Below, piece after piece: positions 12,063 to 35,116 of a stretch of 35,565 bases of DNA. Below the pieces are notes generated by a model. The model did no database searches and was not told the DNA's origin. It worked only from the letters and a program-made list of their open reading frames with translations. The DNA is from a bacterium (lineage in GTDB: Bacteria > UBA9089 > JASEGY01), in NCBI GenBank assembly GCA_040753085.1, contig JBFMHI010000016.1:1-35565 (forward strand). The letters run 5' to 3'. Within the stretch, counting starts at the first letter, position 1. Each line of letters starts with the position of its first letter. The position numbers were made by a program, and so were the translations under genes.

Positions 12063-12608
12063 ATGAGATCGGCTTTAGCGGCTTTATTTCTTTCGATAGC
12101 TTTAATCGCGGGTATTTGTGGCAGCCCGGCTTATGCGGCTGGTGAAAAGGACGAGATGACCCTTGGGCAGCGGATGAGTAGATTAGAGGAGCGAATGCTT
12201 AGATTAGAGGTTATGTTGGAAGAGAAGTTTAAGGCCATCGATCAAAGGTTTGAGGCAGTCAATCAAAGATTTGAGGCAGTCGATCAAAGGTTTGAGGCGG
12301 TCAATCAGAGGATTGACGATTTGAAGGCCAGCGTTGAGGAGAGGTTTAATTATGTCTATATAATGTTAGGCGGTATTTTAGCTCTATTAGGCGGCGTTTT
12401 TGCTCTTATGGGGATTATGCTTAGCAAGGTGGTTTCGGTGTTGAGCGAAGAAAGGCCGATAGGTCACCGGCATTATGAGCAGATACAGAGGAGAGAGGAT
12501 GAGATAGAGGCTGAAATCAGGTCAATAAAGCGGAGAGAAGAAGAGATATTCGGCCGGTTAGAGAATCGGGTAGGCCGAATAGAAGAACAACTCCCGGTGG
12601 CAGCCTGA
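12063..12608 (+). CDS. Exported coiled-coil protein with a membrane helix
   Basis: A 181-residue protein starting at ATG 12063 with AAGGGGA about 8 bp upstream. Residues 1-25 look like a signal peptide (ALAALFLSIALIAGICGSPAYA). Residues 33-95 are a coiled coil, including four heptads of DQRFEAV/NQRFEAV (60-87) that are also a 21-bp DNA repeat. A strong membrane helix (YVYIMLGGILALLGGVFALMGIML, 97-120) is followed by a second charged helical stretch (140-178). I do not recognise a named family. It is the last small gene before the giant surface protein, 324 bp away; a similar coiled-coil/membrane protein lies just after the giant gene, so both might assist its export or anchoring. That is inference from position. 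Confidence 0.8.
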   Translation: MRSALAALFLSIALIAGICGSPAYAAGEKDEMTLGQRMSRLEERMLRLEVMLEEKFKAIDQRFEAVNQRFEAVDQRFEAVNQRIDDLKASVEERFNYVYIMLGGILALLGGVFALMGIMLSKVVSVLSEERPIGHRHYEQIQRREDEIEAEIRSIKRREEEIFGRLENRVGRIEEQLPVAA

Positions 12609-12687
12609 GAGCAGGCCCAGGCAGCCTGGCGCGTGGGATTTGTCCACCGAGGAGTGACCCAGACATCTGGCTGGTGATTTAGAAGTG

Positions 12688-12864: not shown

Positions 12865-12932
12865 TAATAATGAGACTTAGCGCGTAGCGCATGAAAATAA
12901 ATCTTAAATCTAAGTAAGGAGGAAGAAACCCA

Positions 12933-15900
12933 ATGGGTAATCAACAAAATCAAGAAGGTAAAGAAGTAGCAGTAGTAGAGAAAAGGAGGAATGGTTTAAT
13001 GAAAGGAAAGAATAGTATTGCAATTTGGAGTATCGCCCTGATCCTGGGGGCAGCCCTGGCCCTGACGATCGGTGGAATCTACGGGGTTGGTGTGCTTAAG
13101 GCAGGGGAAAATGTGCTCTTGTTTCATGATCCTGATGCCTCTGATACAGGTACCTGGACGGTCGACAGTCTCTGGCATGTGACGGATAAAGGTGTTTTTC
13201 CGGCCAGTCGGGCCTACAGTGGGTCGGAGAGTTTTTACTATGGCTTAGATGCAACTCATACCTATGATGCTGGGGGAGATGATACAGGGATATTAATCAG
13301 TCCCTTAATAGATGTCCCTGATACCGGGACCCCAGCGGTGATTCTCTCCTTCTGGCATTGGATCCACACCGAGCTGAATGCGCCTGATGAAGACTATGGG
13401 GTGGTGGAGATCAGTGATGATGGAAGCAATTGGATCATGTTGTCCGAGTATCGGAATAATGAGCCTAATTGGACCCTTAAGGAATTTAATATTACCGAGT
13501 TCGTGAAAACGGCTGGCGACTCAAATGGTAATTCGATCCCGGATATTCAGGTTAGATTCGTTTTCTACTGCAATGCCAGTGACAATACCTATGAAGGCTG
13601 GTATATAGATGATATCAAGGTAGCGGCGGTGGAAGTCGAGAACGTGATCGCCTGTCACGGCTCGACGGACAATCTTGTTTTGGATATGACCATCACGCCG
13701 TCGGCCACAGGTGATAGTGCTATTTATCCGACTTCAGGTTATAAGGGTGATCCTACGAGTAAGTTTACCTATTTCAAGAATATTTCCACTGCCAGCAGTA
13801 TTTCTTGCGCCACACCGACGGTTACGGGCAATACGGTTAATGTGGCCTGGGTTGATACTGGGATTGGCAGTGGTTTCAGCGGCGCTTCCGGCAATGCCTC
13901 GCATATCTTTATCGACGCGGATAACGATTCAGCCGCCACGATAACCCCTGATGCGATCCTGGGCGGTCCAAGCAGCGGCATTGCGGCCGGTACAGCCCTT
14001 ATTCCTTTCCATAAATGGGAGCTGCACACCGATGAAGTGACCAACGATACTATGTCCTACAGCTCTGGTGAGGATATCGTTATCGACTATGATGATGACC
14101 GGATGATTACGCACTCTGGCACCTCTGGTATCCCGGGCGGAGCAGACGCCCTCCTTTATAATGGGTCCGATACCCAGCCTTCCCAGATAGAAGGGCACTT
14201 ATTAAGGGTGTTCGAGAAGGATGTTATTAAGCAGGCTTCTACGGATGCCGGTATTGCCACAACCGAGCCTGATGGTGATGATACCTATGCTTCTGGCGTG
14301 AACTTGGGTTCTTATGTTACCGCCGGGCAAACCATCATCTTGCCTGGTGCAAATGGAACAATAGAATCGGATACCAACGATATTAATGGCGTAGCTGGTG
14401 CTGATGATTACAACGATACGGCCCTGTTTGATTTAGTCGTTACCTGGGGCACAGCCACTGGCGGACAGAATCCGGGCCAGGGCGATGCCCTGAAGACGGT
14501 CTGGAGTAACGGTCCAGATACGCAATATTATATTGATGCCAATCATGGTGGCTGGTATAATGGCGCCCTTTCGGATACTACCTCTACTACCCTTTCTTAT
14601 ACGGCCAACCCGCATGCCAATGTAACAGATACCGGCGAGGTAATCATTACCAGCCAGAATGATACGCTCGATACCGGGCTGTTAGATGGAACCGGGCCGG
14701 ATACGGTGGCCATTGCTGGGTATGTCGATTTTGCGGCGATAGCTAATGTTTGGATCGTTGATACGATTGATTCTACACCTGGCAATGCCTCTGCTGTTTA
14801 TGATGATGGGGAGGCGCTTTTTAGTAGCAGCGATAATCAAATAGATTCGACTGATGCTATTATCCGGAGCGGATGGGCCTCGGTGACTGCTTTTAATACT
14901 GCCTCCGATAGTATCTATTATTACGATACAGGGAGCCTCGGTGTCTTTGATCTGGGCGATACGATTTGGGCTGATGTAAATGGCAACGGTCTTTATGATA
15001 GTGGAACAGACGTAGTGCTGAATGGAAGCAGTAGCGGACTTAATGATGGTGACACCGGTCTGGCCTTTAACGGCTCTGATTCGGTAGCCTATATAGATAC
15101 TAATCATGATGGTCAATATGACTCAACCCCAGGTAGTTGTGAACCGCTTATTTATCTTGGCGGCGACACAGGTATAATACCGGATTGGGCGTGGGAATGG
15201 TATACCATCCTTGCTCCGACCGGGACCGCGGATGTAAATGCAGGGGAGACTTATGCAGATACAGGTACTGGTTGGGCGGAGAATGGCGAGTGGCAGACCC
15301 TAAATCTAAATTGGGCTACGGCAAATGAAATGGTAGATAATCAGATTTTGGTGGGTGTTGATGTGGATGGGGGGAATGATTATGACACTCCTGAGGCTAT
15401 TATTCAACTGGGGACGGGTCAGTATGATTCGGCAAATAATGGACAGACTTCTTACCTTACGAGTGGGGATACGGTTATCACTGCTGGTCTGGCTAGTATG
15501 ATTGGGATGTCCACCACCGGCCTTTCTTACACCGATTACGATAGCGACGATCTGATCGACACCCCAGAGCAGGTGGTCTGGGATAGGATCAATAGTACAG
15601 ATACGATTAATGGTATTAGTTTGGTTCCCCCATTGCCTAACATGACTGGTAATGATTATGGCCTTGGATTTTTCGATAACATGATCGTTGAAGGTCCGGG
15701 GAGTACCGGTGATGGAATGCCGACTACCATGCTGGCTGAGTGTGGGGATTCTTATGTAGCTAAAAGTATTGCTAAGGGTCCCACGAGTACTACGGCGCCT
15801 ACGGATCTTCTTCCGGATGATAATCCTGATCTATCCACCCGGGATGTTATTGCGATTAACACGGTAGCTACTTGTACAACCTCGCGTAGTTACGGTAACA

Positions 15901-18900
15901 TCTGGATGATGGCCAATGATGACCGGGGTGATAAATCACCCACCAACAACCTGACCTATGATGATGTTCAGGAGACCCTTAATACCGGTTACTGGATAGA
16001 TGTGAATAATGATTCTAAATTTGATGTCGGCGACATCCTCTATCTGGAGACCACGGGTAATACCCTCTTTGATTCCGGCTCGATAGTGGCTGGTGGCGGG
16101 ACAGACTATCTTTTCTATGCGCCGCCAGATGCTAACTGGTCAAGCATACTTGATTCTAATAACCAGGCCTCTCCCAAAAACGCCTATCAGGTGAAGGACG
16201 TAAATGGGAGCCAGATGTATAGTTCAGGCAACACCCTTTACAACGCCAACTGGGTCTGGTATGATGCCAATGACAATAATGAGTTTGATACCGGGGACGC
16301 CATTTACCAGAACTCTATTCCTCTGGCTACCGTGAATGATTCTACTTATTATACTGGTTCAGGAGTAGTTACGGTCACGGTGAGAAACGATCAGATTTAT
16401 ACCTTTACGGGAGCCAATGCGCCGGCTGGAACTTTTCTGGTGGAATTCCTGACTACAGCTACAGGTGAGACATACACTGATGCTAATGGAAACGGATTTT
16501 ATGATTCAGGTGATACATTGGCTGAGGTAAATGGGAACGGTCAGTATGATCCGCCGGAATGGCACACCAATCCTGATTGCGGATTTAACGCCGGCAATGA
16601 GGATATGTATCGGTTTAACTACACTAGTGAGACTAATTGTGAGTCTATTGTAACCGAAGATTGGCCGGCGGCGACCGGTATTCATACCTATTCTCCTTGT
16701 GGTGAGATGTGGTTTGCGGGTTCGAGTTCGCCTACTTCCCTGGCTGGGGTGCAGTTGAATTTCTTTAATGCCAATGATGGCTGGGTGGATAGTGTCACCA
16801 GTGACGGTAAGTATACGGCCACGGAAGAGGTCTGGACTGATGTCAATAATAATGGTGTGATCGACCTGCCCGGCTCTGATGCCTTGCTCAAGTTGACTGT
16901 TTCCAATTCCGGCACGGCCACTACCGAGGATATAACCGGCTTTAAGCTCTATTACGAGGATCCCTTAGATGTCAGCCCGATCGGCCTGCAGGTGGCAGGT
17001 GCGAATAAGGATCCGTCGATAACTATCACGGTTACCAGCACTGATTCCAACACCTGGGTGCTGGATCCGACCACAAACTTTACCCTGTCAGCAGCCACTC
17101 GATTCTATGTCACGGCCAATATTGCCGCTAATCCCACTTCTCATCTTTACGGGAATACCATCCTGATGTCGGTGGATTCTGATACGGTTTCCCTGCAGTC
17201 CGGGGCGGTCCTGTCCTCACAGTTGCAGTATAATGATCTCTACTATGTCACTATCGACTGCACTGAGCCGGGCAAGTCTGAGGTGGTCAGGATGGAGCTG
17301 ATAAAGACGGGAGACTGTCCAGGTACTCCTTACGGTTCCACTTATCAGTGGGCCCAGATACGCAGCCTGGAGATCGATGATGATGGTGACGGCCTGATGG
17401 ATGAAGACGGCCTGACAGGCTATAAGAACCACCAAACGGGCGTTGATGACGATGGCGACGGCCTGATAGATGAAGACTCGATGACCCCAGAGATAGGCTA
17501 TGGTTACAATGTCTATGAAGTCAGGGATGATCTGAGAATGACCTTGGCCACGCCTTCGGATCAGGACGTGCGGATGTTGCGGGCCAAGTTCAAAAACGAG
17601 GATGGATATGACACCACGCCGGGTCGAAACAGCTTTGCTGACCTTGATCTTGATCCGGCCGGTGATGAAAATAGTGATGGCTCACCTGGGGTGGCCGGCC
17701 TGGATGATGATGGTGACGGCGCGGCCGACCTTAACGATGCGCAAGTAAACGCGGCCATAAATAACTGGTGGACGGATCAGGTGGACAACGACGCTAACGG
17801 TTACGTGGATGGTCGGGAGCAGGTCTACCTTAACGGGACTCAGGTCCTGATCGATGTTGATGGCGACGGCATCTTTGGCGAGATGGCCTTAGCCAACGGT
17901 ATTATCAACGATGACAAAGGTTATATGGCGGCCAACGACGATGACGAAGACGGCATGGTGGATGAGGATGACTTCTTCCTCTTCTTTACCGGCGGCGAGC
18001 CTTTTATCGATGCTGATGGAAATAATTTCTTTGATGCGCTGGAGTCTTATGTAGATCAAAATCATAATGGCCAGTGGGATCGGGAGCCGATTACCCTGCC
18101 CTGGATTCACAAGACCACCGGCGTGATTGTCTCTGCTTCCGTAGGCTCTGCTGATCAAACAAATTACAAACCCATTCCGGTACTGCCGGGTTCTTGCTCA
18201 GACCTGCGGGCCAACTTTAACTGGGTGATTAATACTAAAATATGGCAAGCGGTCCAGAATCTAATCGAGCTCTCGGCCCAGAAGGCGTCTACCAATTCCA
18301 CCTGTCTCTTAAACGGCGGGGTGGAGTACTCTATTAAGGCCCTGGCTTATGATAACTGCTGGGCTCATTCATCAATAGATGAAGACGCCGTGCCTGTCCG
18401 GGTGATTATTGACAACACCGCGCCGGTGATCGAGTCGGTGAGCTTGATATCTGACCCTGACCAGGCGGGCTACTACTTCTTCCAGGCTGAGATAGCCGAG
18501 GATGTCACCGGCAAGGCGCTCGATGTAGACAGAGTAGTCTTTAAGGTGGGGAGTGATTCTACGACTGCGTGTGCTCAAGCTATCTTCGCCACGGTGTATT
18601 CTTCGCCTTTCCGGACTTCAACCAGTTATGAGATTGGCCTTGACAATTCTCAGACCCCATGTCAAACCGGCAAGGCTTATGTTTGTGCCCAGGCCTATGA
18701 CCGGCTTGGTTATGGAGAGCTTAATCCGAGCGGGAAGTTGACTGGTGAGTGCAAGGGCTATAATGAGCACAACGATACAGCGACAACCTGTCTAGTGGCG
18801 GGTAATGTCTCCAATGAGGTGGTCTATGAGGCTGAAGCCGCGGATAAGACGGCGCCGAGGGTGACTATCACCCGAATCGGGAACAATCAGAACCTGGAGA

Positions 18901-21900
18901 ATGTGACGGCCAGGGTGCCTCAGGATATAGCCATCCAGATTGAGGTGGCCCCGTGGGCGGCCTTAGACCGGGATAATGATCCTCGTATTTGGGGCGATGG
19001 GTCGGCCGGATCGGCTGATCCCAAATATTATCGGCCGATGCCGCCTGAGTTTAAATATGTGGATCGTGACTTGGATGGGATGTTTGATTTCAGCACTGAC
19101 CATATCTACTATGATACCGGTATAGTCAATATAGTGGATGCGGCCGATTCATACTTTGAATATAACATTACTACCACCAGCTCCCCGGTAGATACGGGCG
19201 CTAATCTCACCTCCTTTAACTACGATAACACCTATCTGACCGGTGTAAAATGGGTTGATGGCGGTGACACTGGTTTGAATGATGGCAGCGCTGATTCGAT
19301 CTTCTTAGTCACCAATGACATCGATTATGTTATGTTCCAGTATAAGAGACCGTGGGAAGGTGAAAGTGACTGGAAGACCTTAGGCTCTATCACCGGTGAA
19401 CAGCTTGATGTCAACAGTGATGGGGTGGTTGATCTGGTAGACTTCACCTATCCGCTGGTAGTCAACTGGGATACCCGGCAGCTTTACGGCGACTACAAAC
19501 TAAGGGTCCTGTCTTACGACTGCGAAGGAAACGTGCTGAAGACCCCGGCCGGCGTCATCTGGGCGCCGGAGGTGGAGGCCACGGTGGATAACACCTGTGT
19601 GGCCCCCTACTTCCTGGGATTTGTAGATGGAAGTTTAGGCGATTTAGGCTCAGACAGCTTTAGTGAGATTACCCTGGTCAATGACAGTTCGGATACGGTC
19701 CACGGCAAGGTTAAATTTGTGGCCAACACCTACTCCAACGAGGTCGATCGGGTAGAATTCTACTATTCGAGCTGCATACCTCAGGAGAAGGCGGATGTGC
19801 TCTTTATCATTGACAATTCCGAATCAATGGGTGACAAGGACAGCCCGGGTACCGATCTCTACGAGGCCATTCAAAATGCCCAGAAGCTCGATCTGAAGGA
19901 GGGTGGCGGCATTAGGGTGGGCGTCCTGGCTTACCAGGAATTGGTGGCGGCCATAGATGGTGGCGGTCCGGCGATGACGGATAATCAGGCTACCTTTGTC
20001 AGTTGGCTCGAAAAGGTAGCGGATGCAACCGGCGTGGGGAGCAGCTGCGAAAAGGCCTTCACGGCCATCCAAGACGGATTGAGCCTGTATAACAGCCTTT
20101 TTGATCCGGCTTCCAAGAAATTTGTAGTCCTGGTCACTGACGAGGATTCTTATGATGATCCCGAGAAACAGAAGGCGATTGACGCCTTAAAGGCCCAGGG
20201 GGCCACCCTGTTTGTGGTCTTCAATAATCCTCCTTATACCACCAGTGATCCGGCTTGCGATACGGGTTCGACGGTCAGTAATCCGGCTCAAGACTTTGAT
20301 GGGACGACGGTGGGGTCCATCACTGCCGAGATGAATGGCAACTTATATAATAATGGCCCCTCTAAGAGTTATAACCTTAAAAACTATCCTAATGTGGCGG
20401 CTGCCTGGAACGCTGTCCTGGGCGAGATTAGCGCCTCGATCAAGATGATCGGCGCCGGTTGGAATTATATCGGCACGGATGCCACGCCAGAGGTGATTGA
20501 CAGCCCGGGTGGAGAGCCGATGCAGATTTGGCGTTCCATAGACTGGGATTCTACTCAGTTCCCGAACTCTATTGGCGCTGATTCGGCTGGTTACAAGGTG
20601 ATTGTTCAGGCCGTGGATGATGACGGCAATATGTGCCATATTGAATCGGTTTGCTTTGGCGTGCACAATGCCTGTCCGGCCGTGAAGCTGGCTAATGTGC
20701 CGGCCCTTTCTTACATCGCTGCCAGGAGCGCGGCCAGTCATCCGGATATCGAATATCACTGGATGGAGGGCGAACCTTTCAAGGATGATGATAAGGACGG
20801 CGTTTGGGATATGGGCGAGTCTTATGCGGATATAAACGGCAACGACACCTACGATGCCGTCTCGGCTTACCTTAAGGTTACCCTAAGAGCCCAGTTGGAT
20901 GCAGGCACTGCCTTGAGTGATGTTTCGCTGGTGCAGTATCAGTATTCGGTTAATGGAGGCGATACGTGGGCTGCCATATCTCATCCCTGGTTAGGTGATA
21001 GTGTGGCCACCTCGGTGCTTAATCCCGACTGGTCGATGGTCTGGTATCCGGAGCTGAATTTTAAGAACCTGAGAAGAGATATGGGCATCCTGCTTCGGGC
21101 TAAGGTTTACGGTACGGACGAAAAATGTGTAGAGAACTATAGCCACGTAGAGATGGGCGACAACATCGAGCCAATCGCTACTATTGTGGAGATCAAGGAT
21201 TCCAACAGCCAGCAATATGTGAATGATGGCAGCCGGGTGAATCTCTGCAGCGGGGCGCAGATGGGTCTTGACATCCTGGCTATTGCCTATGATCAGGATG
21301 CGGCGCCTGATTCCATGTCCGATCCAAACACCGGCACGGATGAGCCGGCGGATAATACCACTATTCAGGATATGGCCTTCTACGTCAAGAAGCCTGGTTC
21401 CACCAGTTGGGAGGCCTTGAATGTTGGCATTACGCCGGCTGTGACTGATTCTGATGGTGATACTAATGACTGGCGTATCAGTTGGACGATGGCGGATATT
21501 GAGAGCTGCACTGAAGGGCGATGGCTCTTTGCGGCCGTGGCCACTGACTGGGCCGGTAATAAGACCCTGATTACCTCGGAGGCTGATACTACGCCTACTA
21601 ATGATCCTTACGGTGATGTGGGGCTTGATTTAGTGAGCGCCACTGATCCGACTTTCCCGACGCCGGGCTATCAGCTTTACGGTGACACTGAGCCTTACTT
21701 AGATGACGCGGCTAACAGTCAGCCTCCTTACACCAATCCTAATGGCCGCTGGGAGGGTAATGGCCGGACCGATTCGGTTTACAAGAACATTATCATTGAC
21801 TGCCTGCCGCCTGAGGCTGCTATCGCCAGTTATGATGCCATCCGATGCTTCCAGGATACCTTTGACTTAGACATCGCGGCTACCTCGGCCTTTGGCGCCT

Positions 21901-27900: not shown

Positions 27901-30900
27901 ACCGGGTGGTGCTTAAGGCCGAGGTTGATGGGGCGGAGATGAATGATGTGACTCAGGCCACCTTTGCCTGGAAGTCGCATACAGATGTTACCGATAACTG
28001 GAAGCAGATTACCGATACCTCCTCCAGTATCAATCCTGATACCAATTATCCTTACGCCATTACCTGGAGAACCGGTCTGCAAAATGGCAACGATAGTCCC
28101 CTGGTAGTCGGTGGGACCTATGACATTATGGTGACCGTGGCCGATCGGGTAGGTTGCACCGCCACCGCCACAGTGACGGTAACGGTTGAGGATAATGTGG
28201 CTCAGGCGATAATCAGCCGGATTATTACCGACTGTGATACCTACGGTGACTGCGAAAATATGGATAGCGTCAGGATTAATGGTTTGGTCAGGTTTGAGGC
28301 TCAGGTAGATGATGATGTGACCAGGCTAATCTGGAAGTATCGCCAGGTAGGCGCTGATAGCTGGATTACGGCTTCAGATGACGGTAGGACCGTAGTTGGT
28401 GATAATGGATTTATGCTGGCCTCCTGGGATGTGACCACGCTGGATGAGGGCGAATATGAGATGATCGTAGTGGGCACCTCTGATCTTGGCCTCACGGATG
28501 TCAATGAAGTGAGTATCAAGTTCATCGTGGATCAGCAGGCCGACTTTGGTCTGCTCTTTAGTAGCCTGGGAGACAAGGGCAAGGTGGGCTTTGCGGATAA
28601 TACCCAGTCGATGGCCGATGAAGGACGCCTTGATCTGATCGCCCAGATCAATGTGCCGGATGCTGACATCCATAAGAATGCCGGCACTGGTTGGTATGAT
28701 GGTCTGACCTTTGGATTCAAGCTCTGCGCTGACATTGATACCGGGACAGCCAGTTGGAACTGGTTTGATACGCCGGCTGTTTATGATGATCTGACCGGCT
28801 ACTTCTCCTTAGGTATCAATGCCGTTGAATTTGTGGCCGCAGGTGGCAATGCCAACAATTGTTGCTATGACTTTGCCATCAAGCTGCGAGATCAGGCCTG
28901 CAATGAGGACTACGTGGTCATCGCTAAAGGCGTGACCGTGGACAATCTGGATCCGAGGGCCTGCATCACGGCTATTAATGAGGATACCACCTTAGAGGAG
29001 GTGGTCGATGTCTCCAATAAGGCGAGGACGACCATTAGGATGACGGCCTTTGATGCCTGCACGGCCGTGACCAAGGTGCAGTTCCAGATTTCTGATACAT
29101 CGGCTTATATCTGGCGAGACATTGATGTCATCCTGGTGACGGATGGAATGGATCCGAACAATATAACCATTACCTGGAATACCACGGGTATGCCAGGGGG
29201 TGACTACTGGTTGAGGGTAGTCGCCACTGATCAGGTTGGAAATATCGGGGCGGATGGTGATTGCATCAGACAGGTGAGGATTACCGACACCCTGCCGCCG
29301 GTAGCGGTTATCGCTGGTTATGATGACTATCAGGTCAGGATTTCCCAAGGATTCTCCGGCGGTCAGCAGGAGATTAACAACATCTATGTGGATGCCATCT
29401 ACGCCGTGACCTATTGTCCGGATGTCCAAGAGGTCCAGTTCCAGGCCTCGAGTGATAATGGCCAGACCTGGACTAATATCGGCTTTGCCACTAATCCGGT
29501 GGCTGTGGGTGATACCCCGGCGGGTAGAGATAAGTATGCGGTCTGGAAGGTGACCTGGATACCTGAAGCCGGGAATTATCTCCTGAGGGCCTTACCCAAG
29601 GATGACCATGGGAACAGAGATGAATCCATTGCCCCGGTGACCGAGATTGCAGTTACAGCCGCGGGTCAGGTTACGGTAATGGATGTGACCGACGTTAACC
29701 TGGGTGAGATCTTTGTAGCCGCTCACCTGATTGATAGGAAGACCTTAGAGATTACGGCTGAGATTTCAGGTGATAAGGCCCCGCTCAGAACCGTTCTGGT
29801 AGTGGTTGAGGATGCCCAGGATAATGTCTATGAGGAGATCATCGAGGTCTTCCCGAGAACCGATGTGCCTAACACCTACGTGGGTGTGACCACCACCGAC
29901 CTGGCCACCATTGCCCACGGGGGCACGATTACGGTCTACACGGCCGGCACGGACAACTTTGGCCAGATAGGCGGCGCCTCGGAGTATGCCTTAAAGACGA
30001 TGAAGGTCTATCTGGTGACCCGTAGTCTGGGCACTAACGGGCCGGTGACCATAGATGACCTGACGGTAGCCATTCCTGGCAACTATGGCGGGGTTAATGC
30101 CGCTAACAGGACAGGTCTGTTGATCCTGCCGACTATTAGGCCGGTCACTTCCGCTGGTCAGGCCAGACATATCAAGCCGGTAGGGCAGGCCTACCAGGTG
30201 GTGCTGCTTAGTGAGCCTGATTCTCCTCCGGTCTTTATCCGCGGCTATGAGCCGAGGGTGACTATTAAGTATCCGAATGACCTTGAGCTGGCGGCTCTGG
30301 GTATTAATGAGGATAACCTCTCTGTCCGCTACTGGAACGAAGGCGTGGTTCCGGAACTCGGCCGAGCCGGCTGGGATAATGACAAGATTGTCAGAGTAAA
30401 ACAGGATAAGGTGAATAATACCCTTAGCTTTGACCTCTCGGATACTACCCTGACTGAGATCTACTCGGTAGTTGAGACGGAGAAGTCCTATATCAGGAAA
30501 ATTGCCTTTGATGGGCCTCAGGTTACCTATATCGGCGATCCGCTGGGGACGATCTATGTCAGGAACGACTTTGACATCATTACTGTCTGGGCTGTAGAAG
30601 GCGATGGCGTGGATCTTAAGGATATTGAGAATGTGGAGATGACCATTGATAATATCCCGGTGGCTAATGCGACCTTCAACAACGGTGTGTTGGAGAACAA
30701 CATCAGGCTGGGTCAACTTAATCTGACCAATCTTAGGATAGAGGCGGATGTCTTGGCTGATTCGGCGGGTATCTTCCCACTGACTGAGGGTGAGCATATC
30801 CTGAAGGTCTACCTCCGCTCTAAGAGTGACAAGACCGAGCTGACCTACGACCAGCCCTTTGTGGTGGATATGACTGGACCATTTGCCGTGCTGGATGGTG

Positions 30901-33900
30901 ATCACTACTACAAGCCCTGCACGGATAAGGGCGTGATTTCAGCCATCTTTGCAGATTGGGGGAGTGGTTTCAACCTGGATGATGACACTGATGGGTTGGA
31001 TGACATCAGATTGGATATCTGGAAGTATATCAAAGACCTGGAGGTAGAGATAGATGTAGCTACTGGAGATGTAACTGCTACCGGCGGCGGAATTGCTAAC
31101 ACGGTTAATCTACCTTACCTGAAGGGTGTAGCCAACGATGGTGAGGATCAGGGTAATATCATCAACTTCCAGCGCAAGGTCTTGCTCAAGACCGTTTATG
31201 GTCGAGAGGGTGGTCTGAGGTTCCAGTACTCTGATGACTTCATCAATGATGGTCTGGATAACGAGACCTGGCATGATCTGCAGACTACCTGGGATCATAA
31301 GAATCATAAGGCTTGGCGGATAAGCTATAAGTATAACGATGGCAACCTCAAGGAAGGTGAGACCTTGCAGGCCATCTTCTACGTCGGTGGACATGAGGAT
31401 TGGGATGATCTGGATGATCTGCATAACGAGCATTACGGTTTCTTCCTCTATCAGCCGTGGGGTCTGCCGACAGCCTCATCAACAGGAGGGTCAGGAGGAT
31501 CTGGTGGATCCGGAGGATCTGGTGGATCCGGAGGATCTGGTGGATCCGGTGGAGCCGGAGGTGATGCAAGCGATAGTATGGCCGGTGGAGCTGGTGCCTC
31601 TGGTGCAGCCGGTGCAGCCGGCGCAGCCGGTGCAGCCGGCGCAGCCGGTGCAGCCGGTGGAGACCCTGACAGGAGAGACCTGATTATCGATGAGTGGGGA
31701 GATGAAGGAATTAACGATATTCCATTTGATCCGTTCCAGGCGTATTATATTGGTGATGATTTTGAAGATGCGTTGGGGAATGGTTCTGGAGAGACTTGGC
31801 TAGTCCGCAACTACATCATCGAGACCAGCGGACCGGCAGTGGCCTTTGATGTCAATGACGGTAGCGTGACCTCCAAGCAGCCGGCCTTTAATGTGAGGGT
31901 AGCGGATGCCGCTTCGGGCGTGACTTCGATCTCGGTTTACCTTGATGGGTATGACATTACCCTTGATCCGGGTGTCAAGCTAACCCCGGCCGGTGTTAGC
32001 TATCAGCCGACTATGCCGCTGGCTACGGGTAAGCATACCCTGATGATCGTGGCTATGGATAAGGTCGGTAATAAGACCACTAAGTCTATTACCTTTAATG
32101 TAGATGCCTCTATACCGATTATCACTATTGCCTCACCGGCTAATGGGGCGATTACTAATAACCTGCCTACCATTGAGGTTACCTATACTGAGGCTGAGGC
32201 GGCTGGCGCCGGGATCGAGGCCAAAGATGTAAGGGTGACTCTGGACGGAACAGATATTGTGGTTCAGGCTGGTGGGGCCGGGGTTAATACGGTGACCTAT
32301 ATGCCGGCTGAGCCTTTAGCCGAAGGTAGCCATACGGTGAAGGCTACGGTGACGGATAAGGTGGGTAATGTGGCCGTGGTCAGCTCCATCTTTACGGTTG
32401 ATGCTACGCCGCCTGATATGGCCGGTCTGCCGGCTAATGGCACGGTATTCGGTAAGTATGTGGCTCTGGATCTGGCTATAGCCGACGAGGTAGCCGATGT
32501 GGGCTGCGACGGCGTGGCGCTGTGGATGAATTCCAAGCTAATAACTGATGCCTGCCAGTGCGTACCGTACCAGTCTGTTAACCTTAGGTGGTCAGGCTAT
32601 CCTGAAGCGGGTGAGCATCTCATCCGGGTGGTAGCTACTGACCAGGTGGGCAATGTGGCCATGAAGGAGACCACCATCGTGGTTGATGTGGCTGGTCCGG
32701 TAATTACTATCCTGCCGCCTGTTACTGGCGCGGCCGGCCTGACTAAGGATACGGTTAGGATCGAGGCCACTATGACGGATGAGCCGGCCGGTGTGAAGGC
32801 TGATACGGTTAAAGTAACCTTAGATGGAACGGTGGTGGCCTACACCGTAACGGATAACCGGGTGGCCATTGACCTGGTCGGCCTGGCCGATGGACGGCAC
32901 ACCTTAGTGGTTGAGGCCGACGATAGAGTGGGTAATGCCGGCCGCAGTGAATGGATGTTCGAGGTGGATACGCAAGGCGCTGAGATATCAATTGCTACCG
33001 AGGCCGTTAATGGTTATGCGATTAATCCGGCGACTATTACCGGGGCAGTAAGCATTGACGGCGCTGATCTGGCTGCCCTGACCGTAACCGTGGACGGCGT
33101 TAATGTCACGCCGCAGGTCTTTAAGCAGTCCATTGACCGGGCCGTTAATGAGGCTATGGTCAACTGCTATGAGTACGAGTATGTGCCGTGCGGCGACCTG
33201 GTGGATTATTACCAGTCTGTAGAGGACGAGGCTTATTCCCAATCCGTAGACGAGGTGAATTTGGACGTCCAGATAGGTTCAGTCACGATAAGTTCGGCGC
33301 CGGTTGAAGCGCCTATTAGTGACTGCCTGACCGCGCCTTGCTGGGAAGAGACAATGAGAAGGGTGCTTGGCCTGTCAAGTATGACGGATGAAATCCTGGC
33401 CGCTTCTCTGGATATCATCAGGCTGGCCGGCATTTACTACACTACCCCGCCGCTGCCGGCCGGAGATCACACGGTAATAGCAACGGCGGTCGATGATTTA
33501 GGTAATAAGACCACTACGAGCCTGAACTTCAACATAGACGGCGCAGCCCCGAGCGTGGAGATCACCGCCCCGGCAGCCGGCTCCTTCACCCTGGCTCAGC
33601 CGATCTTTACCGCGACCTTTAGTGACGAAGGTATAGGTGTGGCTCGGGTAATGGTTAGCCTGGATGGCGAGGATGTTACAGCTCAGGCTAATATAGACAT
33701 GGCCGCAGGCAGCCTTACCTTTATGCCTGGCAAGCCGCTGAAGGATAGGACGCATACCCTGAGTGTGACGGTAACTGATGTGGTTTGGAATAGCACTACG
33801 GCCGAGGTTACTATTCAGGTAGATAGTACGGCGCCGCGTCTCACTATTCTTTCACCTGCTGTTTCATCTGAAAATGGGGCAATGGATGCTCCTTACGTGA

Positions 33901-34445
33901 CGGCTGGTGATTTGCTGATTGAGGCCGAATTTAATGATGCCGGCAGTGGGGTTGATACCGGTTGTGTGGAGGTAACTATTGACGGCGATTCAGTAGCGGC
34001 CACGGTTACCTCGACCGGCCTGATCTATCGACCGGCCATAGGCAGCCTGGAACCCGGGCCGCACGATCTGATAGTTAAGGTCTGCGATAAATTGGGTAAC
34101 CAGGCAGAAGAGATGGCCTCCTTTATCGTGGGTGCGGCTGAGCTGGAGGTCAGTGAGGCCTACAACTTCCCGAACCCGTTTGAGGGAGAGACTACTATCC
34201 GCCTGAAGCTGACCAAGCAGGCTAATGTGACCATCAAGATTTACGATATGGTCGGTGATCTGGTGGCGACGGTGGCCGATGCCGAAGAGCATAAGCCTGG
34301 CAATGGCGGGGTGGTTTACTTCAACTGGGGCGGCACCAGTGATGAGGGCGATCAGATGGCTAATGGTGTCTACTATGCCAGAATAGTGGTAGAGGACGGC
34401 TCCAAGACCGTGGTTAAGGTAATCAAAGTGGCCTTGCTCAGATAG
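12933..34445 (+). CDS. Giant (7,170-residue) vWA/Ig-domain surface protein
   Basis: One uninterrupted 21.5-kb frame, probably a secreted calcium-dependent adhesin or surface-layer/matrix protein of roughly 750 kDa. Two starts each have a strong ribosome site: ATG 12933 (AGGAGG 10 bp upstream) and ATG 12999 (AAAGGAGG). An export signal lies at residues 23-57. In order: MAM/jelly-roll-like domain (60-232); Asp-rich DxNxDG calcium loops (about 675-1715); about 25-30 Ig-like modules joined by VDxTAP-type linkers (from 1825 on); a vWA domain with MIDAS DNSES (2286-2510); GSDDxQ/PGPxG modules (3035-3700); a paired beta module (4485-4637); a Gly-Ser/Gly-Ala-Ala linker (6185-6243); more Ig modules; and a sorting-type tail with YNFPNPF (7077-7083). 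It is acidic and rich in Asp and Thr. The ligand is unknown. Confidence 0.93.
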   Translation: MGNQQNQEGKEVAVVEKRRNGLMKGKNSIAIWSIALILGAALALTIGGIYGVGVLKAGENVLLFHDPDASDTGTWTVDSLWHVTDKGVFPASRAYSGSESFYYGLDATHTYDAGGDDTGILISPLIDVPDTGTPAVILSFWHWIHTELNAPDEDYGVVEISDDGSNWIMLSEYRNNEPNWTLKEFNITEFVKTAGDSNGNSIPDIQVRFVFYCNASDNTYEGWYIDDIKVAAVEVENVIACHGSTDNLVLDMTITPSATGDSAIYPTSGYKGDPTSKFTYFKNISTASSISCATPTVTGNTVNVAWVDTGIGSGFSGASGNASHIFIDADNDSAATITPDAILGGPSSGIAAGTALIPFHKWELHTDEVTNDTMSYSSGEDIVIDYDDDRMITHSGTSGIPGGADALLYNGSDTQPSQIEGHLLRVFEKDVIKQASTDAGIATTEPDGDDTYASGVNLGSYVTAGQTIILPGANGTIESDTNDINGVAGADDYNDTALFDLVVTWGTATGGQNPGQGDALKTVWSNGPDTQYYIDANHGGWYNGALSDTTSTTLSYTANPHANVTDTGEVIITSQNDTLDTGLLDGTGPDTVAIAGYVDFAAIANVWIVDTIDSTPGNASAVYDDGEALFSSSDNQIDSTDAIIRSGWASVTAFNTASDSIYYYDTGSLGVFDLGDTIWADVNGNGLYDSGTDVVLNGSSSGLNDGDTGLAFNGSDSVAYIDTNHDGQYDSTPGSCEPLIYLGGDTGIIPDWAWEWYTILAPTGTADVNAGETYADTGTGWAENGEWQTLNLNWATANEMVDNQILVGVDVDGGNDYDTPEAIIQLGTGQYDSANNGQTSYLTSGDTVITAGLASMIGMSTTGLSYTDYDSDDLIDTPEQVVWDRINSTDTINGISLVPPLPNMTGNDYGLGFFDNMIVEGPGSTGDGMPTTMLAECGDSYVAKSIAKGPTSTTAPTDLLPDDNPDLSTRDVIAINTVATCTTSRSYGNIWMMANDDRGDKSPTNNLTYDDVQETLNTGYWIDVNNDSKFDVGDILYLETTGNTLFDSGSIVAGGGTDYLFYAPPDANWSSILDSNNQASPKNAYQVKDVNGSQMYSSGNTLYNANWVWYDANDNNEFDTGDAIYQNSIPLATVNDSTYYTGSGVVTVTVRNDQIYTFTGANAPAGTFLVEFLTTATGETYTDANGNGFYDSGDTLAEVNGNGQYDPPEWHTNPDCGFNAGNEDMYRFNYTSETNCESIVTEDWPAATGIHTYSPCGEMWFAGSSSPTSLAGVQLNFFNANDGWVDSVTSDGKYTATEEVWTDVNNNGVIDLPGSDALLKLTVSNSGTATTEDITGFKLYYEDPLDVSPIGLQVAGANKDPSITITVTSTDSNTWVLDPTTNFTLSAATRFYVTANIAANPTSHLYGNTILMSVDSDTVSLQSGAVLSSQLQYNDLYYVTIDCTEPGKSEVVRMELIKTGDCPGTPYGSTYQWAQIRSLEIDDDGDGLMDEDGLTGYKNHQTGVDDDGDGLIDEDSMTPEIGYGYNVYEVRDDLRMTLATPSDQDVRMLRAKFKNEDGYDTTPGRNSFADLDLDPAGDENSDGSPGVAGLDDDGDGAADLNDAQVNAAINNWWTDQVDNDANGYVDGREQVYLNGTQVLIDVDGDGIFGEMALANGIINDDKGYMAANDDDEDGMVDEDDFFLFFTGGEPFIDADGNNFFDALESYVDQNHNGQWDREPITLPWIHKTTGVIVSASVGSADQTNYKPIPVLPGSCSDLRANFNWVINTKIWQAVQNLIELSAQKASTNSTCLLNGGVEYSIKALAYDNCWAHSSIDEDAVPVRVIIDNTAPVIESVSLISDPDQAGYYFFQAEIAEDVTGKALDVDRVVFKVGSDSTTACAQAIFATVYSSPFRTSTSYEIGLDNSQTPCQTGKAYVCAQAYDRLGYGELNPSGKLTGECKGYNEHNDTATTCLVAGNVSNEVVYEAEAADKTAPRVTITRIGNNQNLENVTARVPQDIAIQIEVAPWAALDRDNDPRIWGDGSAGSADPKYYRPMPPEFKYVDRDLDGMFDFSTDHIYYDTGIVNIVDAADSYFEYNITTTSSPVDTGANLTSFNYDNTYLTGVKWVDGGDTGLNDGSADSIFLVTNDIDYVMFQYKRPWEGESDWKTLGSITGEQLDVNSDGVVDLVDFTYPLVVNWDTRQLYGDYKLRVLSYDCEGNVLKTPAGVIWAPEVEATVDNTCVAPYFLGFVDGSLGDLGSDSFSEITLVNDSSDTVHGKVKFVANTYSNEVDRVEFYYSSCIPQEKADVLFIIDNSESMGDKDSPGTDLYEAIQNAQKLDLKEGGGIRVGVLAYQELVAAIDGGGPAMTDNQATFVSWLEKVADATGVGSSCEKAFTAIQDGLSLYNSLFDPASKKFVVLVTDEDSYDDPEKQKAIDALKAQGATLFVVFNNPPYTTSDPACDTGSTVSNPAQDFDGTTVGSITAEMNGNLYNNGPSKSYNLKNYPNVAAAWNAVLGEISASIKMIGAGWNYIGTDATPEVIDSPGGEPMQIWRSIDWDSTQFPNSIGADSAGYKVIVQAVDDDGNMCHIESVCFGVHNACPAVKLANVPALSYIAARSAASHPDIEYHWMEGEPFKDDDKDGVWDMGESYADINGNDTYDAVSAYLKVTLRAQLDAGTALSDVSLVQYQYSVNGGDTWAAISHPWLGDSVATSVLNPDWSMVWYPELNFKNLRRDMGILLRAKVYGTDEKCVENYSHVEMGDNIEPIATIVEIKDSNSQQYVNDGSRVNLCSGAQMGLDILAIAYDQDAAPDSMSDPNTGTDEPADNTTIQDMAFYVKKPGSTSWEALNVGITPAVTDSDGDTNDWRISWTMADIESCTEGRWLFAAVATDWAGNKTLITSEADTTPTNDPYGDVGLDLVSATDPTFPTPGYQLYGDTEPYLDDAANSQPPYTNPNGRWEGNGRTDSVYKNIIIDCLPPEAAIASYDAIRCFQDTFDLDIAATSAFGAYNVNSTGSPYKVVQVWMREKDSGDSWTLIATTEEEVVIDTGDMVVSTRVKVGSDDVQVVNVGEYVDSGTVIITPGPNGVIDSVLGDADGDGAADTIAFSGDATAKIRGTWSSLTPTDEAIDTYAVRVTYPVPGNGDDEDGNSADADEDGYPNGQEITAGSDPNDSTSYPAGDPEPASNYIDEDGLGGLDPGPGVEKTYEFMVTAIDRQDEFSNPGNDDYTQACYQHIIEVEVDTIRPEARISQIDVKTTGDDDSVALADEIDTAQTVTVTTGEDHLIVAVVDPDPSGGFSGSETSVGDVSKVAFYADDPATPDVENYTILIGWGDNTDHAADGFPNKYSVRLTDTQLAALGGPGCYKVIAIAYDDNCDNNKEDKKAEAAPYYDAWGTEDTEKLTLCIEGPCNLELSLGGLGNNGCESNDIGDTTLDNRVYLSGIDEAECKKTKVSGDELDLYVTTASQVDTTSIEISFDGGSTWEAMNYNNFNDFTFTLYEDDFPYYSTADPNQPGAQAKFEDVVVNVWPTTAHYYSVPMNVAVDPEGAYIWQSPAGVLGNMIVDGGDSICQTAKLVGSDDIQLEEVGYRTTIGGIEWMALILPGPDGILQSVPGDTDGDGDIDKVTTDDKYQINAGSISTGAISTPVIVNKIGGTCRTKMRAGSDDLQVVEVGAVLTAATVNTTNGDSIVVIMPGKDGILQSISGDANGDGYLSAAEATANLNGDARPADRTAPITISYAFTIDAVGNDTYDQQIGEMVLPGAQVWSINKDISGLADGVYQVMVKAANTSGSCEDQISKKIIIDRTAPQLGDIEVSLGTGCGNVVGAGQAVPLWATVSDPSGNTDINIIGVASVLFQWSKDGNTQDGTSMWYDIDSDDIPANGWSINWTAPGNLPEGTTLHVRAIAYDDAKNGALLNDGITVTVDTVAPTVHLVSPVDATQFTKGDVLTLVASTTDTADLANVTFQYSVGDTDLAGEVWTNIPAYTYSEADIDGSDGWQVLWDTAETNLPETADYYVQIRAVARDCAGNERPSPVVILLHDYDGMPSAWLTRISACEDRNVLDPYLAVTGIASLSGITDATAVMVTLEIMGSDTADTWTELGIAGVTDKAFAYIWDATTWAEGVYYLRVKATDDDGNTSEPTDKVKIVVDHTTPVVKTFEVNTLSPNAGDSIVFTVDADATMSDIDGETVEAQSVTLQHWDAIAAVWRNNLFQPPIFTYSAQTGLWTYTAASPTALRTALDITTDKCEYYVRALVDDWACNTNNLDSIGIDSQGNEYSGDDLPTAVKKIQLDTLEPTVEAVYAGNRYYEYGANVACGGDEVDVYVKLRKDDCSGIDESSINFFYREFGTANEWKEIKYGAAIALEDVLTEGTTGYEYLYATKWITPPNQRMADMNYEVGAYVADEAANDTYSWKINRTANVTVETDCTAPTGTSVTASDTDNSHLCGDNSMDGIIELKAYTAGHADDYRPIYDTSVDDNINSATVEFYYQDGGTWTQIYGLDVMTTLKVSTDVGDKVMAVVSTTGFAVDDLIKIKSAGVEEVRTIKEINPATNEITVDQGLSAEYEVGCATVHELAKAAYTPGLTTALAAGADSDAGTRVIALADVTGLAAKDKLLLTGGSKAEIVTVVSVEGNTVTIDPALTNDYSNWPDTVSVIKSGYWGINLDTRNLPDGTYTIAARAIDWAGHEEDMATLTTTTLVVDNPRADVRVTTERSVERGEELLIEATPDDDSDVAAVGFWYTADDPTCETAAWTMMTAVTTSANMDTNMTEGKYAFRWDTRGISLSDFMDEACNCYVDSMCFTVVGIAWDDDCGRAGDDWPYGLTDSDTFSAAIAEGRYITVCVTDTTAPKITLTAIDYTSECGVTGALNLPEEAEDMIIGGLATVTAQSEGAADDLNTGPAHVRFMYRLYGTTTWTTLDMDPIHTNGNDTDPTSWVLSNWDTLAPKLNGVYEVGIEATDVFGNTTEEVYPFKLRIDNEPPTNVKLTLSGPNTPEISSDGTTTGTLERGDRVVLKAEVDGAEMNDVTQATFAWKSHTDVTDNWKQITDTSSSINPDTNYPYAITWRTGLQNGNDSPLVVGGTYDIMVTVADRVGCTATATVTVTVEDNVAQAIISRIITDCDTYGDCENMDSVRINGLVRFEAQVDDDVTRLIWKYRQVGADSWITASDDGRTVVGDNGFMLASWDVTTLDEGEYEMIVVGTSDLGLTDVNEVSIKFIVDQQADFGLLFSSLGDKGKVGFADNTQSMADEGRLDLIAQINVPDADIHKNAGTGWYDGLTFGFKLCADIDTGTASWNWFDTPAVYDDLTGYFSLGINAVEFVAAGGNANNCCYDFAIKLRDQACNEDYVVIAKGVTVDNLDPRACITAINEDTTLEEVVDVSNKARTTIRMTAFDACTAVTKVQFQISDTSAYIWRDIDVILVTDGMDPNNITITWNTTGMPGGDYWLRVVATDQVGNIGADGDCIRQVRITDTLPPVAVIAGYDDYQVRISQGFSGGQQEINNIYVDAIYAVTYCPDVQEVQFQASSDNGQTWTNIGFATNPVAVGDTPAGRDKYAVWKVTWIPEAGNYLLRALPKDDHGNRDESIAPVTEIAVTAAGQVTVMDVTDVNLGEIFVAAHLIDRKTLEITAEISGDKAPLRTVLVVVEDAQDNVYEEIIEVFPRTDVPNTYVGVTTTDLATIAHGGTITVYTAGTDNFGQIGGASEYALKTMKVYLVTRSLGTNGPVTIDDLTVAIPGNYGGVNAANRTGLLILPTIRPVTSAGQARHIKPVGQAYQVVLLSEPDSPPVFIRGYEPRVTIKYPNDLELAALGINEDNLSVRYWNEGVVPELGRAGWDNDKIVRVKQDKVNNTLSFDLSDTTLTEIYSVVETEKSYIRKIAFDGPQVTYIGDPLGTIYVRNDFDIITVWAVEGDGVDLKDIENVEMTIDNIPVANATFNNGVLENNIRLGQLNLTNLRIEADVLADSAGIFPLTEGEHILKVYLRSKSDKTELTYDQPFVVDMTGPFAVLDGDHYYKPCTDKGVISAIFADWGSGFNLDDDTDGLDDIRLDIWKYIKDLEVEIDVATGDVTATGGGIANTVNLPYLKGVANDGEDQGNIINFQRKVLLKTVYGREGGLRFQYSDDFINDGLDNETWHDLQTTWDHKNHKAWRISYKYNDGNLKEGETLQAIFYVGGHEDWDDLDDLHNEHYGFFLYQPWGLPTASSTGGSGGSGGSGGSGGSGGSGGSGGAGGDASDSMAGGAGASGAAGAAGAAGAAGAAGAAGGDPDRRDLIIDEWGDEGINDIPFDPFQAYYIGDDFEDALGNGSGETWLVRNYIIETSGPAVAFDVNDGSVTSKQPAFNVRVADAASGVTSISVYLDGYDITLDPGVKLTPAGVSYQPTMPLATGKHTLMIVAMDKVGNKTTKSITFNVDASIPIITIASPANGAITNNLPTIEVTYTEAEAAGAGIEAKDVRVTLDGTDIVVQAGGAGVNTVTYMPAEPLAEGSHTVKATVTDKVGNVAVVSSIFTVDATPPDMAGLPANGTVFGKYVALDLAIADEVADVGCDGVALWMNSKLITDACQCVPYQSVNLRWSGYPEAGEHLIRVVATDQVGNVAMKETTIVVDVAGPVITILPPVTGAAGLTKDTVRIEATMTDEPAGVKADTVKVTLDGTVVAYTVTDNRVAIDLVGLADGRHTLVVEADDRVGNAGRSEWMFEVDTQGAEISIATEAVNGYAINPATITGAVSIDGADLAALTVTVDGVNVTPQVFKQSIDRAVNEAMVNCYEYEYVPCGDLVDYYQSVEDEAYSQSVDEVNLDVQIGSVTISSAPVEAPISDCLTAPCWEETMRRVLGLSSMTDEILAASLDIIRLAGIYYTTPPLPAGDHTVIATAVDDLGNKTTTSLNFNIDGAAPSVEITAPAAGSFTLAQPIFTATFSDEGIGVARVMVSLDGEDVTAQANIDMAAGSLTFMPGKPLKDRTHTLSVTVTDVVWNSTTAEVTIQVDSTAPRLTILSPAVSSENGAMDAPYVTAGDLLIEAEFNDAGSGVDTGCVEVTIDGDSVAATVTSTGLIYRPAIGSLEPGPHDLIVKVCDKLGNQAEEMASFIVGAAELEVSEAYNFPNPFEGETTIRLKLTKQANVTIKIYDMVGDLVATVADAEEHKPGNGGVVYFNWGGTSDEGDQMANGVYYARIVVEDGSKTVVKVIKVALLR
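13110..13629 (+). other. MAM/jelly-roll-like domain of the giant protein
   Basis: Residues 60-232. The pattern of an SFYYG strand, ILISPLIDVPD, VILSFWHWIHTE, YGVVEISDDGSNW, then VRFVFYCNASDNTYEGWYID-DI is typical of MAM-like and immune-inhibitor-A-type jelly rolls, which bind ligands or glycans. Confidence 0.65.
14961..18078 (+). other. Calcium-loop-rich region of the giant protein
   Basis: At least twelve DxDxDG/DxNxNG loops, such as DVNGNGLYDSG, DTNHDGQYD, DVNNDSKFDVGD, DANGNGFYDSGD, DDDGDGLMDEDG, DDDGDGLIDED, DDDEDGMVDEDD and DADGNNFFDALE, resemble thrombospondin type 3 or dockerin calcium-binding loops. They should stiffen the protein on binding calcium outside the cell. Confidence 0.8.
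19788..20455 (+). other. von Willebrand factor A domain of the giant protein
   Basis: Begins KADVLFIIDNSESMGD; DNSES (2294-2298) is a DxSxS MIDAS metal site. FVVLVTDEDSY near 2403 supplies the later Asp, and ATLFVVFNN is the next central strand. vWA domains with an intact MIDAS bind protein ligands through a divalent metal. Confidence 0.88.
22044..24030 (+). other. GSDDxQ / PGPxG repeated module
   Basis: Three modules share GSDD-x-Q-x3-VG, then I-x-PG-x-x-G-x3-S-x3-GD-x-x-GDG: GSDDVQVVNVG...ITPGPNGVIDS (22044-22170), GSDDIQLEEVG...ILPGPDGILQS (about 23600-23730) and GSDDLQVVEVG...IMPGKDGILQS (about 23860-24005). A weaker copy (ILPGANGTIES) is near 14338. Function unknown. Confidence 0.7.
26386..26841 (+). 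other. Tandem pair of beta modules in the giant protein
   Basis: Two consecutive units of about 65-75 residues have matching landmarks: VMAVVSTTGFAVDDLIKI then VRTIKEINPATNEITVDQGL, and VIALADVTGLAAKDKLLL then IVTVVSVEGNTVTIDPAL. The pattern is like short beta domains in phage tail spikes and surface proteins. Confidence 0.6.
31484..31661 (+). other. Gly-Ser then Gly-Ala-Ala low-complexity linker
   Basis: An 18-bp DNA repeat (GGAGGATCTGGTGGATCC) encodes GGSGGS, then a 9-bp repeat (GGTGCAGCC/GGCGCAGCC) encodes GAA. Together they form a flexible linker between a WGLPTASST region and the last group of Ig modules. The tract is a likely site of length variation. Confidence 0.9.
34145..34442 (+). 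other. C-terminal sorting-type domain of the giant protein
   Basis: SEAYNFPNPFEGETTIRLKL, then VTIKIYDMVGDLVATV, then FNWGGTSDEGDQMANGVYYA and KVIKVALLR. This is the Ig-like C-terminal domain seen on secreted proteins of FCB-group and related candidate phyla (T9SS type A / FlgD-Ig-like). It suggests outer-membrane export and surface attachment, but no T9SS gene is in this window. Confidence 0.8.
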
Positions 34446-34450
34446 ACGAT

Positions 34451-34590
34451 TAGACGATTTCGGATTTTGGATTGCGGATTGCGGATTAAAAGAGCCCGCC
34501 GTCCGCAATCCAGTCCGAATAGACGATTTCGGATTTTGGATTGCGGATTGCGGATTAAAAAAGCCGTAGTCCGCAACAATCCAGTCCGAA
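34451..34590. repeat. Tandem 69/71-bp hairpin-forming repeat after giant gene
   Basis: Two direct copies, 34451-34519 and 34520-34590, both start TAGACGATTTCGGATTTTGG and end CAATCCAGTCCGAA. In each, TTGGATTGCGGA pairs with TCCGCAATCCA and TTCGGA with TCCGAA. GCGGATT heptamers fill the loop side. They may attenuate transcription past the giant gene; there is no clear U-tract. Confidence 0.85.
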
Positions 34591-34645: not shown

Positions 34646-35116
34646 GTGGCAGTAGTAACCCTGGAGCGATTGAGAGCTAAATTAGGCGAGGAAGGGGTTG
34701 ATGATCTCCTTAAGCTGATAGAGAATGTGGTGGAAGAACGGGGAGTAGTCAGGGGTGAGTTTGAGGCTATTTCTTCGCAGGTAGAGGAGGTTGATAAGAG
34801 AATAGAGGGAAAGATCGAGAGCTTTCGGGGAGAGGAAAGGGAAGAAAGAAAAGACCTGCGGGTAGAGGTGAAAGAGGAGATAAGAAGCCTGCGGGTAGAG
34901 GTGAAGGAGGAGATAAGAAGCCTTCAAGTGCGGATAGATAATCTTCAAGCTAACCTTCAAGCTCAGATAGATAATCTTCAGGATAACCTTCAAACACGGA
35001 TAGATAATCTTCAGGTTGTGATAAATTCTCAGTTAAAATGGACGGTAGGCACGATCGCTCTATTTGGGACGCTGATAACTGTCTTAATGAGTGTATTTAA
35101 GTTGGTGGGGAAATGA
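34646..35116 (+). CDS. Coiled-coil protein with C-terminal membrane anchor (DUF1640-like)
   Basis: A 156-residue protein with a GTG start at 34646 and AAGAGGAGA just upstream. The N-terminus VVTLERLRAKLGEEGVDDLL resembles DUF1640/CCDC90-type proteins. Residues 35-128 are a long coiled coil; from 71 on it consists of five 11-residue units (LRVEVKEEIRS twice, then LQVRIDNLQAN, LQAQIDNLQDN, LQTRIDNLQVV), which are also a 33-bp DNA repeat. A C-terminal membrane helix (WTVGTIALFGTLITVLMSVF, 132-151) ends the protein. It probably sits in the inner membrane with the coil in the cytoplasm. It lies 200 bp after the giant gene across two hairpin repeats, and is similar in plan to the protein at 12063, though that one has an N-terminal signal peptide. 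Confidence 0.82.
   Translation: MAVVTLERLRAKLGEEGVDDLLKLIENVVEERGVVRGEFEAISSQVEEVDKRIEGKIESFRGEEREERKDLRVEVKEEIRSLRVEVKEEIRSLQVRIDNLQANLQAQIDNLQDNLQTRIDNLQVVINSQLKWTVGTIALFGTLITVLMSVFKLVGK

Follow-up and report, generated by a model that had tools for sequence, protein, structure and literature searches.

The question raised by this locus is whether an open reading frame of 7,170 codons is a genuine single gene and, if so, what kind of protein it encodes and how a polypeptide of this size might leave the cell. The frame takes up 60% of the window, i.e., the whole stretch of 35,565 nucleotides that was analyzed, which is an entire contig (C16) of a draft genome of 3.05 Mb in 250 contigs.

Integrity and conservation of the giant gene

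The features that bear on the unity of the gene are the following:

12933..34445, + strand: giant gene, 7,170 codons in a single frame (open frame, sister ortholog, dN/dS about 0.25)
12916..12922, + strand: ribosome-binding site AAGGAGG, 10 nt ahead of the ATG (direct sequence reading)
31483..31659, + strand: Gly/Ser/Ala-rich low-complexity linker without a counterpart in the sister species (tandem repeats, alignment)

At the base composition of the sequence itself, the chance of a frame this long is about 10^-150, and the longest run in the remaining five frames is 315 codons at most. The encoded protein has a computed pI of 4.05 and a computed mass of about 767 kDa. As to whether relatives possess the gene, and at what length, an ortholog is present in the same gene neighborhood in a sister species of the same genus (MAG Yes70-08, record JASEGY010000003.1, contig G001:C387), where the frame is open for 6,338 codons, up to the contig end. 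The two proteins are 64% identical over residues 1-6179 of the window protein, and the biggest indel ahead of the Gly/Ser/Ala linker is 23 aa. The C-terminus of the sister protein (433 codons, 60% identical) is encoded at the very start of a second contig, G001:C842, where the frame is already open; about 390 aa between the two contigs are unassembled.

A frame of this length from a metagenome could, in principle, consist of two genes wrongly joined by assembly across the Gly/Ser/Ala repeat. The linker, being low-complexity sequence, is where such a fusion would first be suspected, and the sister contig stops about 100 codons beyond the point that matches it. However, the sister does not contain the linker repeat, and yet the same frame runs from before the linker point into the part equivalent to residues 6257-6339. 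Because the sister sequence reads on in frame without the repeat, the giant frame is not an assembly join, and this explanation, to which we assign next to no probability, is rejected; the copy number of the linker repeat in the window is uncertain and may be wrong. The sequence-only reading described an uninterrupted frame of 7,170 residues and named homologs split into several genes, or an assembly error, as observations that would speak against it. The open frame and the colinear sister ortholog bear this description out: the sister homolog is in one frame and passes through the linker point. Judged by these sequence comparisons, the giant frame is a real, single gene. Thus, the independently assembled genome of a second species shows that a metagenomic frame of more than 21 kb is a conserved gene rather than a join.

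The gene is under purifying selection, as had been supposed from the length of the frame alone. Comparison of the window and sister genes by the Nei-Gojobori method yields a dN of 0.23 and a dS of 0.93 over about 6,200 aligned codons, and dN/dS is well under 1 in each 400-codon interval, although the N-terminal intervals, with a dS of 1.2-1.5, are near saturation, so that the ratio is rough there. The rate of evolution varies along the protein. Identity to the sister is 57% in residues 60-1790 and 53% in residues 1790-2800 (4.2 and 3.6 indels per 100 aa, respectively), compared with 73% in residues 2800-4200 (2.1 indels per 100 aa) and 83% in residues 4200-6000 (0.5 indels per 100 aa); the contrast across residue 2800 was equalled in 0 of 10,000 block permutations. 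The neighboring genes range from 42% (a pilin-like gene) to 86% identity to their sister counterparts, and since most of them fall between 68% and 86%, the conserved stretch of the giant protein evolves like its ordinary neighbors, whereas the N-terminal part evolves faster. The fast N-terminal part and the conserved residues 4200-6000 are thus the places to look for binding and for structure, respectively.

Domain architecture

The following domains and modules were delineated upstream of the C-terminal tail:

12933..13112, + strand: signal-peptide-like region, residues 1-60 (long basic N-region, hydrophobic stretch, LKA/GE; 92% identical in the sister)
13116..13637, + strand: MAM / choice-of-anchor J type domain, residues 62-235 (profile matches in the sister and in a phylum relative)
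14973..18068, + strand: calcium-loop stretch, residues 681-1712, with 11 EF/TSP3-type D-x-D-x-D-G loops (pattern count)
18303..29696, + strand: about 20 Ig-like modules of the W-x-x-IG.../A-x-D-x-x-GN type, residues 1791-5588 (self-trained profile, Pfam)
19785..20402, + strand: vWA domain, residues 2285-2490, apparently inserted in an Ig-module loop (PF00092, split Ig profile)
22038..22202, + strand: 'GSDDxQ...PGxxGxxxS...GDxxGDG' module, copy 1 of three (sequence reading)
23595..23747, + strand: the same module, copy 2 of three (sequence reading)
23850..24017, + strand: the same module, copy 3 of three (sequence reading)
30006..30476, + strand: unannotated conserved domain, residues 5692-5848 (89% identical in the sister; relatives in three giant frames elsewhere)
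31809..34136, + strand: seven Ig-like modules of the Big_13/Big_7 type, residues 6293-7068, interrupted at about 6690-6830 (Pfam, self-trained profile)

Residues 1-60, read by eye, look like a Sec signal peptide. The adjacent region was previously described as a MAM-like domain, and correctly so: the sister copy matches PF00629 with an E-value of 7.5e-7 (29.6 bits, with the cut-off at 26.4). In the window copy, a Pfam MAM match is absent and the only hit is to NF038128 (0.0019, under the cut-off); a relative from the phylum matches PF20773 with an E-value of 2.2e-9. Relatives of this region occur within several tail-bearing proteins of the phylum, and a PDB sequence search with the MAM profile produced no match. 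Residues 240-1200 matched no Pfam family. The strict calcium-loop pattern is found 19 times in the whole protein, with 11 matches clustered in residues 681-1708, in agreement with the dozen loops noted before. The three 'GSDDxQ...PGxxGxxxS...GDxxGDG' modules also bear a calcium-type loop.

The two series of Ig-like modules comprise about 27 units by a self-trained profile, consistent with the earlier count of 25-30; since both the seed and the iterations of the profile came from this same protein, the number is approximate, and Pfam concurs where its models reach (Big_3_3 over the cut-off, Big_7 and Big_13 under it). Searches of Pfam and NCBIfam (E <= 0.01 for most segments) detected no enzymatic or degradative domains in the giant protein. 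Cysteine makes up about 1.1% of this giant secreted protein and is unevenly distributed, with none in residues 6001-6500 and 11 in residues 5001-5500.

The window vWA domain, noted already in the sequence-only reading, is detected by PF00092 with an E-value of 3.1e-8 (34.5 bits, cut-off 23.8), and the DxSxS motif is present. The description of the metal site (MIDAS) as intact is, in contrast, overstated: DNSES and the Asp of TDED are present, but the Thr position, judged by eye, appears to be Ser, and in the sister copy, which is 37% identical and is detected by no Pfam model, DxSxS has become ExSxS (ESSNS). Given this loss in the sister, a functional role that relies on an intact MIDAS is unsupported. 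The vWA domain appears to be inserted inside an Ig-like module, although the evidence for this is modest. The putative halves of the host module are residues 2255-2284 and 2493-2580; a profile built solely from the modules in residues 3779-5570 matches the vWA flanks in two parts, with the break near profile position 58, and its best-domain score, 14.0 bits with the vWA domain in place, is 17.2 bits once that domain is deleted from the test sequence. Searches of PDB sequences with the vWA segment gave no match, and an AlphaFold2 model of the region from a two-sequence alignment (mean pLDDT 35.6) was unusable, so that the nested arrangement is not confirmed by a model. In the integrin beta chain, the I-like (vWA) domain sits inside the Ig-like hybrid domain. 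A vWA domain within an Ig-like module would thus be common to both proteins; the likeness is one of arrangement alone, with no homology of the whole proteins claimed, and a difference is that the metal site of the window protein is not kept in the sister.

The unannotated domain in residues 5692-5848 belongs to the stretch that is under the strongest constraint apart from the putative signal peptide. The window copy has no Pfam match, and relatives with about 30% identity are encoded in three open frames of 2,179-3,452 aa (L108, L109 and L110) from genomes outside the phylum, all of which possess Ig modules and two of which have a FlgD_ig tail over the cut-off. Motif reading tentatively suggests that this domain is perhaps GAIN/ZU5-like. 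No curated GAIN, GPS or ZU5 model was matched, the best score among the relatives being GPS at 0.082 in one member. L108 retains an HFS motif at the place of GPS cleavage, and the window copy does not contain it. A PDB search yielded a match of only 40 residues to CASC1/DNAI7 chains, which is kept as a lead, and an AlphaFold2 model of residues 5565-6174 from a two-sequence alignment had a mean pLDDT of 29.7 and was unusable.

The C-terminal tail and the putative type IX export machinery

The protein ends with a domain that is matched by three curated models:

34146..34445, + strand: C-terminal FlgD_ig / type IX type A-like sorting domain (PF13860, PF18962, TIGR04183)

The scores are 38.4 bits (1.2e-9; cut-off 27) for FlgD_ig, PF13860, 28.5 bits (cut-off 27) for PF18962 and 37.5 bits (cut-off 23) for TIGR04183, i.e., all above the respective cut-offs, which upholds the previous identification of an FCB-like sorting tail as a type IX-type C-terminal domain (CTD). 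When the last 970 aa were compared with NCBIfam, type A was matched but no model of type B. Each of the 19 phylum genomes contains FlgD_ig tails, with 43 matches in the genome of the window alone.

Homologs of the SprA/Sov translocon are likewise encoded in 19 of the 19 phylum genomes. The copy in the window's own genome (L090:1353-8813; 2,486 aa) was found with an in-phylum query at 1.4e-103 and matches TIGR04189 with an E-value of 1.4e-51 and 175 bits, under the curated cut-off of 200, which one phylum relative clears. Residues 168-239 of the same protein match the PorG model (2.3e-11, under the cut-off). The PorV family (PF19572) has matches in 18 of 19 genomes, three of them in the window's own genome, with the best (6.9e-7) over the cut-off. 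Some genes of the PorV family immediately follow a tail-bearing gene, in several cases a giant one (G000:C22, G000:C17 and G000:C18 in the window's own genome, and G013:C29, G013:C6 and G006:C3; these are examples chosen from the match lists rather than a counted survey). Within the window, which extends 1.1 kb past the giant gene, no PorV gene adjoins it, and the nearest one in the sister is located about 7.6 kb downstream.

In the published model, substrates with a CTD are bound to loops of PorV while inside SprA and exit together with this shuttle (PMC10994853), and cleavage and attachment are performed by PorU (PMC10202324). The PorU sortase (Peptidase_C25) is found in 9 of the 19 phylum genomes and has no match in the draft genomes of the window or the sister, in which a divergent PorU could escape detection. 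A search for the GldM component of the PorLM/GldLM motor complex with a single model (PF12081) gave nothing over the cut-off in the 19 genomes, including those with PorU, and is uninformative; the evidence extends to a type IX-like route rather than to a complete type IX system. In short, the window protein resembles the known type A CTD substrates (TIGR04183 / PF18962) in that its tail exceeds the cut-offs and its genome encodes SprA and PorV homologs, and differs from them in that neither PorU nor GldM was found and that, as far as the searches tell, the host does not belong to the Bacteroidota.

Proposed function and alternative explanations

Taken together, the domain composition and the export components are best compatible with a surface adhesin or fibre composed of many Ig modules and exported by a type IX-like route, to which we assign a probability of about 0.68. 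Under this scenario, the protein of about 767 kDa would be exported by Sec and would then cross the outer membrane via the type IX-like translocon (the SprA/Sov homolog), guided by the C-terminal domain and a PorV-type shuttle. After export, it would form an extended fibre of many Ig modules on the cell surface or close to it, in which the conserved part, above all residues 4200-6000, might serve as a structural stalk that bears one special domain, and the N-terminal part, with the MAM domain, calcium loops and vWA domain, would be distal and might bind a ligand, a surface or a neighboring cell. Because PorU was not detected, the protein could either stay attached through its uncleaved tail or be released. 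The domain make-up would be compatible with adhesion or with matrix building.

The second of these roles is the core of an alternative that we consider unlikely, namely, that the protein is a released or sheath-forming matrix or an S-layer-like scaffold, in which calcium-stiffened Ig modules form a coat and the vWA domain is a relic. The acidity of the protein, its many calcium loops and Ig modules, the failure to detect a PorU for attachment and the degeneration of vWA in the sister all fit such a scaffold. However, MAM and vWA are usually binding modules, and the fast evolution of the N-terminal part suits an exposed binding region more than a lattice, although neither argument is decisive. 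Much less probable is a role in predation or symbiosis, with the protein attaching to the cells of a prey or host. Giant ORFs of Omnitrophota have been discussed along these lines, as adhesins of cells with a predatory or symbiotic life style (PMC10066038). The window holds no pointer to prey or host, and the Pfam and NCBIfam searches found no degradative domain in the giant protein, leaving predation, one of the roles put forward in the sequence-only reading, unsupported. Returning to the surface adhesin or fibre, a more speculative extension, which we consider doubtful, is that the phylum harbors a branch of type IX secretion with dozens of tail-bearing, often giant cargoes that are exported without a recognizable PorU, several PorV-type shuttles encoded beside cargo genes and a tail that possibly remains uncleaved on the surface; at the adhesive end, a vWA domain nested in an Ig module would be drifting away from metal binding between sister species.

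Relation to known giant surface proteins

Size alone does not make this protein exceptional, given that giant proteins with a sorting tail of this type, from 4,000 to more than 8,000 aa long, are common in the phylum. The same genome contains other tail-bearing frames of 4,501, 4,079, 4,063 and 4,035 aa, the third of which is truncated by the end of its contig, and elsewhere in the phylum such frames reach 8,356 aa in the sister and at least 8,268 aa in another genome (G013); these counts are drawn from tail matches and their open frames, not from all genes. More generally, surface proteins are one of the two main classes of giant bacterial genes (PMC11573180), and giant ORFs are common in some candidate phyla (PMC10066038). 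Like the giant ORFs of Omnitrophota and environmental bacteria (PMC10066038, PMC11573180), the window protein is huge, lineage-specific, multidomain and of the surface type, and comes from an uncultured host. The giant ORFs of Velamenicoccia, in contrast, are reportedly poorly conserved and contain few annotated domains, whereas a colinear ortholog, many recognizable modules and a sorting tail were identified for the window protein.

SprB, a gliding adhesin of several hundred kDa that Flavobacterium johnsoniae secretes through its type IX system (PMC10202324), would be a close analogy under the proposed reading, as a giant repetitive surface adhesin that leaves the cell via SprA by means of a C-terminal domain; its tail, however, is of type B and its shuttle is SprF (PMC12618676, PMC10202324), whereas the window protein has a type A / FlgD_ig-like tail. 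Tandem Ig-like modules are shared with the bacterial multi-Ig surface proteins (Big_3_3, Big_7, Big_13), from which the window protein differs by the apparently nested vWA domain and the unannotated domain near the C-terminal third. Most likely, then, it is a further case of the familiar giant surface proteins, unusual in its probable nested vWA and its unannotated conserved domain. The link between the giants of this phylum and type IX-like export offers a testable account of how proteins of such sizes exit the cell.

Genomic context

Upstream of the giant gene, the genes for cytidylate kinase, an acyltransferase, a CBS protein, deformylase, a polysaccharide deacetylase, a glycosyltransferase, a second deacetylase and a coiled-coil protein are collinear in the sister. 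The immediate flanks are as follows:

12063..12608, + strand: upstream coiled-coil protein with an N-terminal hydrophobic stretch and an inner membrane-type segment (kept in place in the sister)
34646..35116, + strand: downstream coiled-coil protein with a hydrophobic segment at the C-terminus (weakly related protein encoded downstream of the giant gene in the sister)

Thus, the giant gene is flanked on both sides by genes for coiled-coil proteins with hydrophobic segments; in the sister, the upstream one is present, along with coiled-coil genes downstream. Heptamer tandem repeats (AATCCGA, AGCCAAT, ATGCTCG, etc.) occur between and inside genes at positions 20-185, 322-513, 9489-9710, 10592-10659, 12687-12784 and 34456-34556. 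The first 74 codons of the ORF at 9490-10818 are repeat-coded and the match to the sister begins downstream of them, at MYVLITVDTES, so that the true start of this gene is probably later than the ORF indicates.
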